Below, piece by piece: positions 4,745 through 14,999 of a DNA stretch of 23,047 nucleotides (position 1 is the stretch's first letter; each line of letters starts with the position of its first letter). The notes beneath the pieces were generated by a model. That model was not told where the DNA came from. It saw only the letters and a program-made list of their open reading frames with translations, and did not search any database. The position numbers and the translations under genes are program-made. The stretch comes from a virus, in the IMG/VR virus record IMGVR_UViG_3300042453_000668, positions 1 through 23,047 of that record; one strand, given 5' to 3'.

Positions 4745-5067
4745 CCCCGTTACTACCCACGCCTGATCACTACCTCCAAAACCTAATAACCATGACCAGT
4801 CCAGAAGCAAAACGGCTCTGGAGAAGAGCCATTAAGGAACACTTCAACTGTCAATGCGTTTATTGTGGAGAAACTTATGAATTACATGAACTTACACTTG
4901 ACCACGTACGTCCTCGCTGCCTTGGTGGGGAAGACCTTACATCAAACCTTGTACCCAGCTGTTGGAAGTGTAATCAGGCAAAAGGTAGTAGTAACTGGCT
5001 CCAGTTTATGAGGAGCACTTTTGGTATAACGCCAAGAGAGAATCTAATCCTTTCACACATTAGTTAA
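4741..5067 (+). CDS. HNH endonuclease
   Basis: This encodes 108 residues with a complete HNH/zinc core: C39-V-Y-C42, the catalytic-type D54-H55 in LTLDHVRPRCLGGEDLTSN, N69-L-V, C74-W-K-C77, then N78 and K81 (CNQAKGS). The two CxxC pairs would hold the structural zinc, and H55 would activate water on a metal-bound phosphate. The start ATG overlaps the preceding stop (ATGA). HNH proteins beside terminase genes often assist packaging-site cleavage, but free-standing homing enzymes look the same. Residues 1-35 are helical and lack a recognisable DNA-binding domain. Nuclease family is certain; biological role is not. Confidence 0.9.
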   Translation: MTPLLPTPDHYLQNLITMTSPEAKRLWRRAIKEHFNCQCVYCGETYELHELTLDHVRPRCLGGEDLTSNLVPSCWKCNQAKGSSNWLQFMRSTFGITPRENLILSHIS

Positions 5068-5069
5068 TT

Positions 5070-5696
5070 ATGCCAGCTTTAAACGAAGCTCAACGCAAAC
5101 GGCAGCGTATGCTGCAACAACAACGTGAAGAAGCTTATGCGGCTTCTATGCGTCCTAAACCGGGTCAAAAGGGACAGCAAACTGGTGCTCAAGGGTCTGC
5201 CTCTAAAGGGGAAACCATTGGTGGTGCACCTCAACGTGTTCGTGTTAAGAACCCTGCCAAAAGCAAGCAACTCACTGCTGACGAAGCACGCACTCCTCGT
5301 GTAGAGAAAGGTATGCGTGACCCTGAGTTTCGCCGTCCAGCTCCTGCTGAAGTGAAGCCTGCTAAACCAGTTATGCGTGCAGCTCAACAGCCTACCACGG
5401 CCACTAAGGCTCCTGCTGCTAAGCCTGCTGAAAAGTCTAAGGCACCTGCTTCAACTGCATCCACTTATCGTGATCCTTTCGATACCAAAGGGCTGTCTGT
5501 AGGTCGGTATCGTACGCTGGAAGAGCACCGCGCTGCTGTTCAAGCTAACAAAGCTATGAAGATTGGCAGCAAGTTTGATAAGACTATGGATGTTTACACT
5601 CCGTCTACCAAGATGGAAGGTAAAGAAATGGACACCTCTAAGGTTACTGCTAAAACCGAAGAGTATAATAAAAAGAAGCGCAAGAACCTTAAATAA
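5070..5696 (+). CDS. Low-complexity Lys/Ala/Pro-rich protein, possible virion or DNA-binding protein
   Basis: This encodes 208 residues and starts two bases after the HNH stop. The N-terminus (about 1-25) is a charged Gln/Arg helix (NEAQRKRQRMLQQQREEAY). Residues 26-130 are disordered and rich in Lys, Pro, Ala and Gln (PAPAEVKPAKPVM, ATKAPAAKPAEKSKAP). The C-terminus (about 135-208) is more ordered (DPFDTKGLSVGRYRTLEEHR) and ends with the basic tail EEYNKKKRKNLK. There are no cysteines and no membrane segment. A similar lysine/proline bias recurs in the next gene, so the two may be functionally paired. Function is unknown. Transcription probably stops just downstream at a strong terminator. 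Confidence 0.6.
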   Translation: MPALNEAQRKRQRMLQQQREEAYAASMRPKPGQKGQQTGAQGSASKGETIGGAPQRVRVKNPAKSKQLTADEARTPRVEKGMRDPEFRRPAPAEVKPAKPVMRAAQQPTTATKAPAAKPAEKSKAPASTASTYRDPFDTKGLSVGRYRTLEEHRAAVQANKAMKIGSKFDKTMDVYTPSTKMEGKEMDTSKVTAKTEEYNKKKRKNLK

Positions 5697-5720
5697 GCAT
5701 CTTCCTTATTAAACGATAGT

Positions 5721-5747
5721 GCCGCTCCAAACCGGGGCGGCTTTTTT
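5721..5747 (+). terminator. Strong rho-independent terminator
   Basis: An 8-bp stem (GCCGCTCC with GGGGCGGC, one G-U pair), a five-base loop (AAACC) and six consecutive T residues lie 24 bases after the 5070-5696 stop. The GC-rich stem plus U-tract is a textbook intrinsic terminator. The following gene's ATG is only two bases past the U-tract, so transcripts ending here exclude it and read-through would place its start beside the hairpin. Confidence 0.85.
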
Positions 5748-5748
5748 C

Positions 5749-6648
5749 ATGCCAGAATTTATTCCTGTTAAAACACGATCTGACGCAATTAAAGCCGCTC
5801 AAACATACTTAGAAGATAAACCTTCTTTGTCTGGTGGTAACCTTTATGAGTTACCTAATGGGGATAAACTACGGGTACGTAAAAAAGAAGGTGGGCGGCT
5901 TTCTGCGGAAAACTACAGTACTAAAGAAACTGCGGACACTAAACGCAGTAAAGAAGAACGCAAGTTTAAAACAGAAGCAGAACGTGAAAATGTTTCTCAA
6001 TTAAAAAAAGAAGCAAAACAACAATCTGCATCTACCGAACATCAATTTGTAGCTGGTTCTAAACCTACTATTGTTGAGCATGACGTTCGACTGGCTTCCG
6101 GTGGTACAAATGAATATGTGTCTTTATCTGATCCAGATTATAAAGTATTTAAAGATACAGTTGAATCAAAGGTTTACGCTGCTTATGGCGACAAGTACGT
6201 CATAGATATTGATGATGTAACCGGTTATCCACGTGCTATTCCCAAAGAATATCACAACAAATACCAACCTACAAGTCAGCAACCTGGATTAGATTTTGAA
6301 CCCGGTGTAGATATTGATAAAGCACTTCAAAAACTGCCTAACTCTGGAGTTTTATCAAAATCAACAGCAAGTATTCGATACACACCGAATGTAACTGCAC
6401 CTCCCGCACCTAAGCCTAAACCAATGGCTAAACCCGCAGCTGCTGCTAAACCAGTAGCTAAACCAACGCCAGTTGCTAAGCCAGTTGCTAAACCTAAACC
6501 TGTTGCGAAGCCTAAAGCCCTAACCAATAAAGCCGGTAACATTAGATTTAGCCGTTCTTTGATTCCTACTGAAGTACCTTCACAAGAACGATTCGGCCCT
6601 GGTGGCATGATAGGTACTGTTGATCAACCACACGAGCGTCAATTCTAA
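5749..6648 (+). CDS. Hypothetical protein with PVAKP-repeat C-terminus
   Basis: This encodes 299 residues from ATG 5749; an in-frame GTG at 5719 is less likely because it lies at the terminator stem. Residues 1-75 are a small alpha/beta-like region (IKAAQTYLEDKPSLSGGNLY, RVRKKEGGRLSAENYSTKET), then a charged linker. Residues about 105-180 form another possible domain (KVYAAYGDKYVIDIDDVTGY). Residues about 225-275 are a proline/lysine/alanine repeat made of PVAKP, KPKP and KPTPVAKP units. The end (GNIRFSRSLIPTEVPSQERF) may be a conserved tail. It lies between a terminator and terL and shares the Lys/Pro/Ala bias of the previous gene. Low AT-rich codon bias relative to the fibres is evident. 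Function unknown. Confidence 0.6.
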   Translation: MPEFIPVKTRSDAIKAAQTYLEDKPSLSGGNLYELPNGDKLRVRKKEGGRLSAENYSTKETADTKRSKEERKFKTEAERENVSQLKKEAKQQSASTEHQFVAGSKPTIVEHDVRLASGGTNEYVSLSDPDYKVFKDTVESKVYAAYGDKYVIDIDDVTGYPRAIPKEYHNKYQPTSQQPGLDFEPGVDIDKALQKLPNSGVLSKSTASIRYTPNVTAPPAPKPKPMAKPAAAAKPVAKPTPVAKPVAKPKPVAKPKALTNKAGNIRFSRSLIPTEVPSQERFGPGGMIGTVDQPHERQF

Positions 6649-10089: not shown

Positions 10090-10161
10090 GGTTGATTGAA
10101 GGTCTTGATCTCGACTCTCCCTGTTAAGGGGGAGGAGAGTCTCGATCTTCAACCATCAACC
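10090..10161. repeat. Long imperfect stem-loop
   Basis: Outer arms GGTTGAT/ATCAACC (7 bp) enclose TGAAG/CTTCA and GATC/GATC segments and an inner perfect 8-bp stem GACTCTCC/GGAGAGTC (10113-10120 with 10134-10141). The loop is CTGTTAAGGGGGA. Small bulges separate the helices. No U-tract follows, so this is not a typical intrinsic terminator. A structured early leader, a replication or packaging signal, or a protein-binding site are all possible. Confidence 0.75.
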
Positions 10162-10380
10162 ACTCCCCCTCAGAACCTCGACAACCGAAGAGCCAAGGCT
10201 GAGTAGGGCCACGGGTCACTGCCGCCAACCACCTGCCGAGCGGGATTCCAGGGGTTGGGCTAGGGTACACTCCTCAGGTGCCAGCCGTGCCACGCCGAGA
10301 AGGGTGAGCACCAGCAAGCGGCGAGCCACAGCCGCTAGATGCGCTACTGCGTATCGCTACAAGTATGCTCATGGCACACC

Positions 10381-10428
10381 GGCTAGTATGCACCGGCGTA
10401 CACCAGGGTTCGAGTCCCTGGCTAGTCA
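10381..10428 (+). other. tRNA-like element with canonical T-arm (possible tRNA relic or att-type site)
   Basis: Positions 10403-10421 form a T-arm: six base pairs (CCAGGG/CCCTGG) around the canonical seven-base loop TTCGAGT. The following TAGTC plus A at 10428 looks like an acceptor 3' strand and discriminator, with no encoded CCA. GGCTA at 10381-10385 pairs with TAGTC (one G-U). Between them GTATGC-ACCG-GCGTAC forms a second hairpin (10386-10401). The whole is only 48 nt, so D- and anticodon arms are not both present. It could be a degenerate tRNA, an integration site derived from a host tRNA 3' end, or a tRNA mimic. Confidence 0.5.
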
Positions 10429-10429
10429 T

Positions 10430-10447
10430 TGCGATCTCAAGGTCGCA
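10430..10447 (+). promoter_or_regulatory. Leader hairpin before the first early gene
   Basis: A 7-bp stem TGCGATC/GGTCGCA (one G-U) with loop TCAA ends 28 bases before ATG 10476. Hairpins at nearly the same distance precede the next two genes. Confidence 0.45.
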
Positions 10448-10475
10448 ACACATTCCATCATTACACTTTCACAAC

Positions 10476-10709
10476 ATGCCTACTTTCAACATTGCTCCTC
10501 GTACCTCTGATGCTGTCTCGTATCTGCAGGTTGACCCGTTCAACGGTGTTGCCTACGTTACATTCGAGAACGGCTATGAGTATGAGTACACCAACGTCAG
10601 CCGCCGGGCTATCATGAACCTGTTGCTCAATCCCAACATGTCGCTTGGGTTCTGGGTTAACAAGAACTGCGTCAACACTAAGCGTACTTCTTACCTTCAA
10701 CTCGTCTGA
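10476..10709 (+). CDS. KTSC-domain-like small early protein
   Basis: This encodes 77 residues from ATG 10476, preceded by TTTCACAAC. The sequence pattern SYLQVDPFNGVAYVTFENGY followed by YEYTNVSRRAIMNLLL and SLGFWVNKN resembles the KTSC domain (a short beta-sheet with an L.V.F.NG..Y.Y..V signature and a following helix). KTSC proteins are small and their biochemical role is not well defined. Here it is the first gene after the non-coding island, so early host takeover or nucleic-acid-related activity is plausible but unproven. It ends before a hairpin at 10736-10754. Confidence 0.7.
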   Translation: MPTFNIAPRTSDAVSYLQVDPFNGVAYVTFENGYEYEYTNVSRRAIMNLLLNPNMSLGFWVNKNCVNTKRTSYLQLV

Positions 10710-10735: not shown

Positions 10736-10758
10736 CCATCACATTTTGTGATGGTTTC
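10736..10758 (+). terminator. Possible terminator / processing hairpin
   Basis: A perfect 8-bp stem CCATCACA/TGTGATGG with a TTT loop is followed by TTTCC. The short T run makes termination partial at best. An RNase cleavage site between early messages is an equal possibility. Confidence 0.4.
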
Positions 10759-10760
10759 CT

Positions 10761-10776
10761 GTAGCCTACAAGCTAC
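10761..10776 (+). promoter_or_regulatory. Leader hairpin, copy 1 of a repeated module
   Basis: GTAGC-CTACAA-GCTAC lies 26 bases before ATG 10803. The context TTTCCTGTAG ... CTACGCTTGTTC closely parallels TTTTCTGTAG ... CTACGTGTTC at 11171-11199, so a module, not merely a hairpin, is repeated before two consecutive genes. Confidence 0.55.
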
Positions 10777-10802
10777 GCTTGTTCACTTGTTTACATTCAC
10801 AC

Positions 10803-11129: not shown

Positions 11130-11175
11130 GCCTGACGATTACACTCAGGGATGCACGTTATGTGTCTCCTTTTCT

Positions 11176-11192
11176 GTAGTCCTCATGACTAC
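11176..11192 (+). promoter_or_regulatory. Leader hairpin, copy 2 of the repeated module
   Basis: GTAGTC-CTCAT-GACTAC lies 24 bases before ATG 11217. The loop and two stem positions differ from copy 1 while pairing is kept, which is the pattern expected of a conserved RNA structure. An upstream CCTGA/TCAGG stem (about 11131-11149) occupies the place of the 10736 hairpin. Confidence 0.55.
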
Positions 11193-11216
11193 GTGTTCTT
11201 TCACATGGAGTTAGTT

Positions 11217-12540: not shown

Positions 12541-12679
12541 AGTTTACTATCGCCGGTTGCACGAATTGTGTGCACAACTGCAGAATCATCCCCATCGTGA
12601 TGAGATCCTACAGCTGGCTATGGACCAGCTCGCTGATGACAACGATGTAATTGAGGATGCCTATGGCTACACCAGCTGA
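12530..12679 (+). CDS. Small early protein, unknown
   Basis: This encodes 49 residues from ATG 12530, overlapping the previous gene by 11 bases and the RNA polymerase start by 17. It is helical and acidic at its C-terminus (RRLHELCAQLQNHPHRDEIL, then AMDQLADDNDVIEDAYGY). Its 3' end supplies GAGG upstream of the polymerase start, so its translation may open that start. Function is unknown. Confidence 0.5.
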   Translation: MTTKVYYRRLHELCAQLQNHPHRDEILQLAMDQLADDNDVIEDAYGYTS

Positions 12680-14999
12680 GATTGACGAACAAGTACAACT
12701 TGAGCGTGATCAGATAGCTCAAGGACTCAAGAGGTTGCACAAGAACACCCAAGATCTTGAGGAGAAGAGTTACGCATCAGCTAGTGTTTATGGTATTGCC
12801 TCGATTGATGAGTTACTGCCGAAAGTAGTAAAACACATTGAAAGTACATTCAATCGTCTTACTAAAGGCCAAGCAGGTAAATCATTCAAGGAGATCCAAC
12901 ATTACATTATTGATCTTGAGCCCTTGGCATCTGCAGCCATTGCACTTAAGTTAACCTTTGACAAGGTGTTTTCCTTTAAGGAGGGCAGTGATCAGCTCAC
13001 AAAAGTATGTGAGGCTATTGGTCAGGCAGTGGAGAATGAGTGCCAGATGCGTTTCTACGAACGTTCTGCACCTGGATTGCTGAACGTACTCAAAAAGAAA
13101 TACTGGCACTCTTCTAGCGGCACACAGCAACGTCTCAGCAACATCCGCAGACCTATGAATGCTGTAGATGTGAAGTGGGATTCATGGGGTTCTGTTAATC
13201 GTGTTAAATTAGGCATTTGGTTACTTGACTGTATCATTGCTGAATCACATTGGTTCACCAAAGAGACACGTTATGAAGGACGCAAACGAGTTAACTACGT
13301 TGTTCCTACACCTGAGTTTATGTCAATTAAGGACAAGGTAATGGAAGAGGCTGAATTGTTTGCTCCACTTGCTTGGCCCATGCTCATTGAGCCTAATGAT
13401 TGGACTAACGATCGTGCTGGTGGTTACTTACTTAATGAGGTAATGAGAGGGCATGATCTGGTTAGGCGCGGTAACCAGGGATCTATACAGGGAGAAACCC
13501 CTATCGAGTTTCTGAACAAGATTCAGAAGGTCGCCTTCACTCTTAATCCTTTCATAGTGGAGGTTGCGGAAGAACTAGATAGATTGAAACGAGCAGTAGG
13601 CAAGTTCCTCCCCATTGTCAACCATGAGTTACCGCCTAAACCTGTAGACATTGCGGAGAACAAAGAGTCTCGTAAGAAATACAGACAAGAAGCAGCTCAG
13701 ACAATGAATCTGAATGCACAAGAGTTTAAGAAATCTTGTCGTACTCGGATGACGATGAAGGCAGTGAAGAGGTTTAAGAACGTACCTAAGTTCTACATTC
13801 CGTGGTCTTTTGATTATAGAGGTAGAGCTTACCCTATTCCTGCCTTTCTTACTCCTCAAGACACAGACTTTGGAAAAAGTTTGTTAGTCTTTGCTGAGGG
13901 GTCTTACACAACTGAAGAGTCAGATGAATGGTTAGCTTTTCAAGTAGCTACTACATACGGTCTTGATAAAGCACCGTTGATTGAGCGTCTTGAATGGACA
14001 AGAAATAACCATGAATTGTTCACACTCATAGCAGAACATCCCGTCGATAACTTACATCTTTGGGAGAATGTTGAAGAACCTTGGCAGTTCTTAGCAGCTG
14101 TGGAAGAGTATTATCATTGTGTTGTAGTTGCTGATAGGCAATTCACTCGTCTTATGGTGGCAACTGATGCTACCTGTTCAGGTCTTCAGATCTTGGCAGG
14201 ATTAGCTAGGGATAAGTCCACCGCACGTCTTGTTAATGTTTTACCAAGCAATCAGCCTCAAGATGCTTACAAGGTCGTAGCAGAAGCAGCTAAGCCTAAC
14301 TGCCCTGAATCCATCCAACCTTATTTAGATAGGAAGGTGGTCAAAAGGGTAGTTATGACTGTTCCTTACAACGCTAAACCTTTCTCTAATCGTGGTTACA
14401 TCCGTGAAGCACTAGCTGAGAAAGGTGTAGAGATTAGCAAGGAAGATTTAACTGCTACTGTTAGGGCAGTAAGAGCTGCTATGGATAGTGTCGTTCCTGG
14501 TCCTATGGCTGTTATGGCATGGATTGAGCAGGAAGTAGCAACAGCTATCAAGAACGGTAAAGACTTCTTAGAATGGACAACACCTTCAGAGTTTGTCGTC
14601 CATCAAAAACTAAATAAAAAAGAAGTTGTACGTCTTCAGTTACAACTGCTTGGAACCTGTGAAATGCAGGTTGCTGTAGGCGATACCGACGAGGTTGACC
14701 TTAACCACCACAAGAACGCAACAGCTCCTAACCTCATCCATTCCCTTGATGCATCGTTGCTGCACTTAGCTGCGCTACGCTTCGATGCACCGATTGCCCT
14801 TATCCATGACTCTGTGTTATGCAGAGCCACGGACATGTCCACGCTATCTACTTTGGTACGTGAGACATACATGCACCTGTTCGCAGAGCATGACTTTCTC
14901 AATGACTTCGCATCTCAAATAGGTGCGGAGACTGCCCCACCGATCATTGGCGATCTTAAGCCTGAATCGGTTATCGAATCCACCTACTTTTTCTGTTAA
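12663..14999 (+). CDS. Single-subunit T7-like RNA polymerase (gp1)
   Basis: This encodes 778 residues from ATG 12663, with GAGG six bases upstream; ATG 12657 is an alternative. The polymerase core is intact: FDYRGRAYPIPAF (T7 Arg425 region), motif A with catalytic D502 in MVATDATCSGLQ, motif B KVVKRVVMTVPYNAKPF with K561 and Y569 (T7 Lys631 and Tyr639), and motif C ALIHDSV with D716 (T7 Asp812). The C-terminus ESTYFFC corresponds to the T7 ESDFAFA foot. It is about 100 residues shorter than T7 RNA polymerase, as usual in cyanopodoviruses. It should transcribe replication and late genes from phage promoters. It contains copy 2 of the 20-base repeat. Confidence 0.95.
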   Translation: MATPAEIDEQVQLERDQIAQGLKRLHKNTQDLEEKSYASASVYGIASIDELLPKVVKHIESTFNRLTKGQAGKSFKEIQHYIIDLEPLASAAIALKLTFDKVFSFKEGSDQLTKVCEAIGQAVENECQMRFYERSAPGLLNVLKKKYWHSSSGTQQRLSNIRRPMNAVDVKWDSWGSVNRVKLGIWLLDCIIAESHWFTKETRYEGRKRVNYVVPTPEFMSIKDKVMEEAELFAPLAWPMLIEPNDWTNDRAGGYLLNEVMRGHDLVRRGNQGSIQGETPIEFLNKIQKVAFTLNPFIVEVAEELDRLKRAVGKFLPIVNHELPPKPVDIAENKESRKKYRQEAAQTMNLNAQEFKKSCRTRMTMKAVKRFKNVPKFYIPWSFDYRGRAYPIPAFLTPQDTDFGKSLLVFAEGSYTTEESDEWLAFQVATTYGLDKAPLIERLEWTRNNHELFTLIAEHPVDNLHLWENVEEPWQFLAAVEEYYHCVVVADRQFTRLMVATDATCSGLQILAGLARDKSTARLVNVLPSNQPQDAYKVVAEAAKPNCPESIQPYLDRKVVKRVVMTVPYNAKPFSNRGYIREALAEKGVEISKEDLTATVRAVRAAMDSVVPGPMAVMAWIEQEVATAIKNGKDFLEWTTPSEFVVHQKLNKKEVVRLQLQLLGTCEMQVAVGDTDEVDLNHHKNATAPNLIHSLDASLLHLAALRFDAPIALIHDSVLCRATDMSTLSTLVRETYMHLFAEHDFLNDFASQIGAETAPPIIGDLKPESVIESTYFFC
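13472..13491 (+). repeat. 20-base direct repeat, copy 2, inside the RNA polymerase gene
   Basis: This copy is identical to 8487-8506. Here it encodes part of RRGNQGSIQGE. It continues as GGAGAA, giving CTATACAGGGAGA, close to T7-family promoter 3' ends. If active it would drive ssb and the replication genes on the + strand. Coding constraint and promoter function cannot be separated by eye. Confidence 0.45.

Follow-up and report, generated by a model that had tools for sequence, protein, structure and literature searches.

What is a 48-nucleotide sequence resembling parts of a tRNA doing in the non-coding island of a viral genome? The window (the whole stretch of 23,047 nucleotides analysed here) is part of a T7-like cyanopodovirus, whose RNA polymerase (12651–14999) shares 79% identity with its counterpart in Synechococcus phage S-CBP4. 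Its non-coding island is preceded by thyX and followed by a run of small early genes, the first of which is an open reading frame of 77 amino acids (10476–10709, plus strand) that gave no match in a Pfam search; a ‘KTSC domain’, guessed for this gene, has no support from Pfam. No integrase was found among the window ORFs read, and no sigma-70-like promoter was recognised upstream of the element in the window. The island also holds a long imperfect inverted repeat (10090–10160, core CTCGACTCTCCCTGTTAAGGGGGAGGAGAGTCTCGA), conserved in both S-TIP37 and S-CBP4; in a further contig (L163) it lies immediately 5′ of a tRNA-like structure.

Fold and flanking structures

The element, hereafter the tRNA-like structure (TLS), occupies 10381–10428 on the plus strand, as delineated by folding, a covariance model and covariation. 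Its minimum-free-energy fold comprises a 5-bp acceptor (GGCTA/TAGTC, 10381–10385/10423–10427), a mini-hairpin (10387–10390/10397–10400, loop CACCGG) and a 6-bp T-arm (annotated here as 10404–10408/10416–10420) with the loop TTCGAGT (10409–10415); 12 nt separate the T-loop from the discriminator, A10428. Sequence and fold thus bear out the T-arm and acceptor pairing reported in the preliminary description, as well as its view that a normal tRNA does not fit: the anticodon arm is absent, with no room for one in 48 nt, ARAGORN finds 0 tRNA genes and no tmRNA in the window, and a covariance search with Rfam at gathering thresholds returns nothing for the element, including the four-arm cloverleaf with anticodon of RF00005. 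Weak Rfam matches to GlsR9 and a plastid 3′UTR were put down to chance.

The fold energy of −20.8 kcal/mol (z = −2.6) is equalled by 2 of 200 shuffles, and the covariance model matches the element at E=8.8e-20, the window sequence being part of its training set. Thermodynamics alone would be weak evidence for such an element, and it is the comparison among relatives that we take to settle the matter.

The TLS is flanked by further structure on both sides, again on the plus strand. Upstream, a hairpin designated H1, AGCGGC-(GAGCCACA)-GCCGCT (10317–10336), forms the first half of a predicted H-type pseudoknot, in which the GCCA of its loop (10325–10328) pairs with UGGC (10372–10375). The stem of H1 differs in sequence among relatives with its pairing preserved, and six 4-bp combinations are seen for the pseudoknot (GCCA/UGGC, GUCA/UGAC, GGCA/UGCC, CCCA/UGGG, UCCA/UGGA and GCCU/AGGC), with four of four pairs in every leader in which H1 was found except S-TIP37, where the script chose another hairpin; five leaders yielded no H1. 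Downstream, and directly after the discriminator, the sequence folds into an 8-bp hairpin, TTGCGATC-TCAA-GGTCGCAA (10429–10448), with the first early gene starting further on, at 10476. Hairpins occupy this position in 23 of 45 distinct elements, set against 4.3 in shuffles (an enrichment of 3–5-fold), and those of the relatives listed differ in sequence but preserve pairing.

Conservation and covariation

An identical 25-mer of the element is present in 11 IMG/VR contigs, and S-CBP3, S-RIP2/KBS-P-1A, S-SBP1, MedDCM-S45-C4, S-TIP37 and P-SSP7 have diverged orthologues at the same place, within the leader that precedes the first early gene; homologues of that gene carry the same module upstream. 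The preliminary description had named a missing host tRNA match and a lack of conservation as signs against its reading; the former is indeed what we find, whereas relatives plainly conserve the element. The closing stem is GGCTA/TAGTC in the window, as against GGCCA/TGGTC in KBS-P-1A, GCCTG/CAGGC in S-SBP1 and GCCAG/CTGGC in S-CBP3, such that the acceptor sequence changes freely with its pairing retained.

Across 25 diverged elements, all 250 cells that cover the D-like hairpin, T-stem and elbow pair hold standard pairs, with 76 double changes, and the covariation score is 0.847 as compared to 0.209 when shuffled and at most 0.222 when slid; most of the 25 rows came from a scan requiring acceptor and T-stem pairing, which to some extent presupposes pairing in those helices. 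That scan set no requirement for the D-like hairpin or the elbow pair, and it is the elbow pair and the fixed register that provide unbiased tests. At the elbow, 29 distinct relatives carry G19/C56 (19) or A19/U56 (10), with no mismatches; the loci were retrieved either through similarity of their proteins or as phage records, with no selection of sequence at either position. We use this set alone for the elbow claim, an earlier set having contained unrelated tRNAs among its G/C entries along with biased, pattern-derived loci.

The co-change between G-C and A-U at positions 19 and 56 shows the tertiary elbow pair G19–C56 of tRNA (10396 and 10411 in the window), which, alongside the 12-nt ‘ruler’ of a coaxial acceptor/T stack, is what a tRNA-like structure should possess. 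The mini-hairpin loop follows the consensus YACNGR, its last two bases occupying the places of G18 and G19 in a tRNA D-loop (10395 and 10396). Because the loop G pairs with T-loop position 56, the two covarying in concert, the mini-hairpin is the equivalent of the D-arm, and not the ‘extra’ hairpin it was first taken for. These comparisons establish the element as a real, conserved structural RNA, with the fold of a tRNA corner, just 5′ of the first early gene, and show that it is under strong structural selection.

The fixed-register test took all matches of a pattern (GGTGTAGNNNNGGTTCRANTCC) that fixes only the linker and inner T-arm, and neither the acceptor nor the outer T-stem. This pattern matched at least 120 viral stretches, and a slightly longer version matched two stretches in 84,980 cellular genomes. 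A full 5-bp acceptor is present, in one and the same register, in 50 of the 69 distinct matches, where 0.7% would be expected and where sliding the register leaves 0–1; the covariation score of the pattern-matched mini-TLS is 0.675 vs 0.189. As the first scanner had required pairing, key counts were repeated on protein-retrieved loci and with the acceptor-free pattern.

A class of elements in phages of cyanobacteria and actinobacteria

The window element is one of a class of TLS, 40–50 nt in length, that no Rfam family covers. Members lie on the sense strand between phage genes, usually adjoining a stop codon, and are followed by a short hairpin and a start codon. Scanning 388 kb gave 30 sense and 0 antisense matches (0.2 expected), and several copies per contig were seen among the fetched loci scanned; strand bias, shuffles and the fixed-register test together rule out a chance origin. 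P-SSP7, for example, has a TLS at 603–648, a 71-nt form at 975–1045 just before gene 001, and a third at ~2550–2605 before gene 003; an un-annotated ORF of 85 amino acids (~709–966 of this locus, L219), resembling the first early gene of the window, directly follows the TLS at 603–648. A second form of the element has no D-stem (NNNNN-ATGGTGTAG-7-bp T-arm-NNNNN). Of 113 distinct elements (the Gordonia set being counted separately), 101 have the 12-nt spacing between T-loop and discriminator; UU comes directly after the discriminator in 80 of the 113, and CCA, an antideterminant of RNase Z, in only three.

Among the genes 3′ of the cyanophage elements, identified by eye from their sequences, are the small early gene, psbA and the gene of the major capsid protein; in S-RIP1 a mini-TLS precedes the annotated major head protein. 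Forty cyanophage mini-elements have a long reading frame upstream, and in 25 of these its TGA stop makes up nucleotides 4–6 of the TLS. PhotoRC motifs, considered since mini-TLS precede psbA, were absent upstream of psbA in the psbA contigs. Glutamine-II riboswitches score above threshold in three cyanophage contigs (L338, 697–749; L220, 10599–10653; L261, 3513–3565), and that of S-RIP1 lies ~150 nt 5′ of the mini-TLS that precedes the major head protein gene.

True tRNA-Asp genes occupy the TLS slot in five contigs (L168, L208, L137, L172 and L197). The interchange can be followed for a single gene, ‘MRKIE...’, which has a mini-TLS upstream in L168 and L124, and a tRNA-Asp upstream in L172 and L197.

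Beyond the cyanophages, blast and covariance models located un-annotated TLS in Streptomyces phage Dagobah, Caudovirus D_HF2_7, Corynebacterium phage PSonyx, and Gordonia phages VanLee and Morgana. In the VanLee and Morgana operons examined, all 25 inter-gene gaps of 50–260 nt contain one, where a chance T-loop would be expected in 0.7% of such gaps, and all 25 elements have five of five acceptor pairs, GG in the linker and exactly 12 nt from T-loop to discriminator. They begin at least 2 nt after the upstream stop codon, and between TLS and start codon there is usually a hairpin together with AAGGAG, which resembles a Shine-Dalgarno sequence. Of the other genomes checked, some cyanophage contigs apart, the majority hold few or no copies; many other cyanopodoviruses tested gave no matches, and neither did T7. 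The PSonyx element (L345, 10824–10864) lies directly 5′ of an RtcB-like RNA ligase gene.

Proposed tRNA punctuation and its alternatives

Synthesising these findings, we think it probable that the TLS serves as ‘tRNA punctuation’ of phage mRNAs by the tRNA-maturation enzymes of the host, a reading that we draw from the elbow, the T-loop, the 12-nt ruler, the scarcity of CCA and frequency of UU after the discriminator, the hairpin that follows, and the interchange with tRNA-Asp. The sub-threshold resemblance to mascRNA-menRNA (see below) and the lack of matches in T7, a phage that relies on RNase III sites, count in its favour as well. The sense-strand placement at gene borders (30:0 in the scan, and 25 of 25 Gordonia gaps) is that expected of such a signal. 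Both RNase P and RNase Z grip tRNA at the elbow and gauge this 12-nt distance from there, along the acceptor/T stack (PMC4919913), model hairpins made of acceptor plus T-arm suffice as substrates of RNase P (PMC11143913), and cyanobacteria possess RNase P, RNase Z, RNase E and the 5′–3′ exonuclease RNase J (PMC10989914).

We suggest that a minimal tRNA elbow and acceptor/T-stem stack is built into the leader of the phage early transcript, which, if transcribed through, would fold as the corner of the tRNA ‘L’; host enzymes would then clamp the elbow, measure ~12 bp along the stack, and cut. RNase Z would most likely cut 3′ of the discriminator A10428, and RNase P may cut 5′ of G10381, where no stop codon is lost, thereby parting the upstream RNA (the pseudoknot leader in the window, the preceding gene elsewhere) from the mRNA downstream. 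Cleavage between 10428 and 10429 would leave the first early mRNA with the 10429–10448 hairpin at its 5′ terminus, where it may protect against RNase E/J. The 3′ cut is the more secure of the two: in the cyanophage mini-elements a 5′ cut would remove the embedded TGA stop (25/40), which favours 3′ cleavage, or gating by a terminating ribosome, whereas in the Gordonia phages, with the TLS starting clear of the stop codon, both cuts would be possible.

A different reading would leave the RNA uncut, with the TLS acting in cis on stability or translation, be it as a roadblock, as a 3′-end stabiliser against RNase J/E, or as a stop-codon switch gated by the ribosome. That many mini-TLS carry a stop codon within the acceptor strand would suit such a role, as would the hairpin directly 3′ and the fact that other hairpins can stand in at the same place. 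A simple roadblock, however, needs no G18G19, invariant T-loop, covarying elbow pair or fixed 12-nt ruler, and the interchange with true tRNA genes also speaks against it; we consider this reading unlikely, if worth keeping in view. Still less probable is a decoy or mimic acting in trans, on EF-Tu, the CCA-adding enzyme, a synthetase or a tRNA-targeting defence. EF-Tu recognises the elbow and acceptor of tRNA, which counts in favour of a decoy. CCA-adding enzymes likewise recognise elbow and acceptor (PMC4919913). Against this, the element has no anticodon arm, an acceptor free to change in sequence carries no synthetase identity, and one copy per gap across an operon fits action in cis and not in trans. 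Of the candidates offered in the preliminary description, a mimic engaging tRNA-handling enzymes is the best, and it is supported here in the more specific form of cis-acting mRNA punctuation.

The two other origins it had proposed, an att site derived from the 3′ end of a host tRNA and a tRNA relic, are contradicted by the sequence data. An attP core or decayed tRNA would explain the resemblance to a tRNA 3′ half; S-CBP1 has a tRNA-Leu-like piece 3′ of its integrase, and tRNA-Leu is the presumed integration site of P-SSP7-like phages, which again counts in favour. Yet a 20-mer from the 3′ half of the element (GGGTTCGAGTCCCTGGCTAG) has 0 matches in 84,980 prokaryote species genomes, the acceptor is variable, and the P-SSP7 integrase (4896–5768) lies 4 kb from the element at 603–648, so that neither identity to a host tRNA 3′ end nor a neighbouring integrase is found. 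Compensatory evolution and the many copies per genome speak against both origins, with the double compensatory changes, a mark of structural selection, leading us to reject a relic; we attach next to no credence to either.

Several known systems offer parallels for the proposed tRNA punctuation by phages. The closest Rfam match of the window element is mascRNA-menRNA (RF01684), at full length with E=0.04 and 21 bits, and the same family is the best match of a VanLee element (E=0.0085, 23 bits); both are sub-threshold, the gathering score being 42.5. These RNAs, at the 3′ ends of MALAT1 and NEAT1, are processing signals cut by RNase P and RNase Z and, like the phage TLS, are short and tRNA-like, with an acceptor, a T-arm and a reduced D/anticodon part; they differ in being mammalian, single-copy at an RNA 3′ end, and in having no downstream hairpin/start module. 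Mitochondrial punctuation likewise places tRNA structures between the genes of a polycistronic RNA, where excision by tRNA-maturation enzymes frees the mRNAs, and the five contigs with a real tRNA-Asp in the slot come close to this arrangement; most phage elements, though, are minimal structures of 40–50 nt, unable to serve as tRNAs, and their cleavage is what we propose. The tRNA-like domain of tmRNA resembles the mini-type TLS in its acceptor, T-arm and stem-less D-loop, but Rfam gives weak matches to the tmRNA T-arm only (17–18 nt, E 0.02–0.1), ARAGORN gives none, and the phage elements have neither a tag reading frame nor a long insert and, in most members, have C-G in place of the tmRNA G3-U70. 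Early mRNA of T7 is cut at RNase III sites, one of them before the first early gene, and in a related phage family these sites do the job proposed here of cutting a polycistronic early transcript, with another structure and presumably another host enzyme. Plant-virus TLS (TYMV etc.) are likewise viral tRNA mimics with a pseudoknot in or near the TLS, and are recognised by RNase P (PMC11143913), but they are aminoacylated and lie at the 3′ end of an RNA genome, as opposed to being repeated inside the transcripts of a dsDNA phage.

In the open-access PMC literature we found no description of punctuation by phage mini-TLS. With somewhat more reserve, we favour the broader view that this undescribed class forms an operon-wide processing code in phages of cyanobacteria and actinobacteria, with host RNase Z and RNase P as phage mRNA-processing machinery; in the cyanophage mini-elements, the stop codon in the acceptor stem would couple cleavage to termination of upstream translation. 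If true, viruses would use a device known mainly from mitochondria, with elements reduced to what tRNA-processing enzymes measure. This would account for conserved non-coding gaps left blank by annotation in many phages, supply natural minimal substrates of RNase P and RNase Z, point to one reason for the retention of odd tRNA genes by phages, and yield a tool of 40 nt with which to cut synthetic operons in cyanobacteria and actinobacteria.

Counted against punctuation, besides the missing promoter match upstream in the window, the stop codons embedded in cyanophage mini-elements and the low copy number in most genomes, were the findings that early genes 2 and 3 of the window have no TLS and that some Synechococcus phages retain the upstream pseudoknot with another hairpin in place of the TLS. 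Early genes 2 and 3 instead each have two successive hairpins ahead of them (at 10738–10790 and 11148–11193), of which the second is of the type CTGTAGC...GCTAC. Retention of the H1 loop and linker, with the TLS replaced, is seen in the leaders L016 (~590–660), L067, L070, L074, L084, L089, L091, L096, L098, L103 and L104; the hairpin that replaces it in L016, L067 and the leaders like them has a conserved loop (GTGRAAGCGATA) and covarying stems, and is possibly another processing or binding element.
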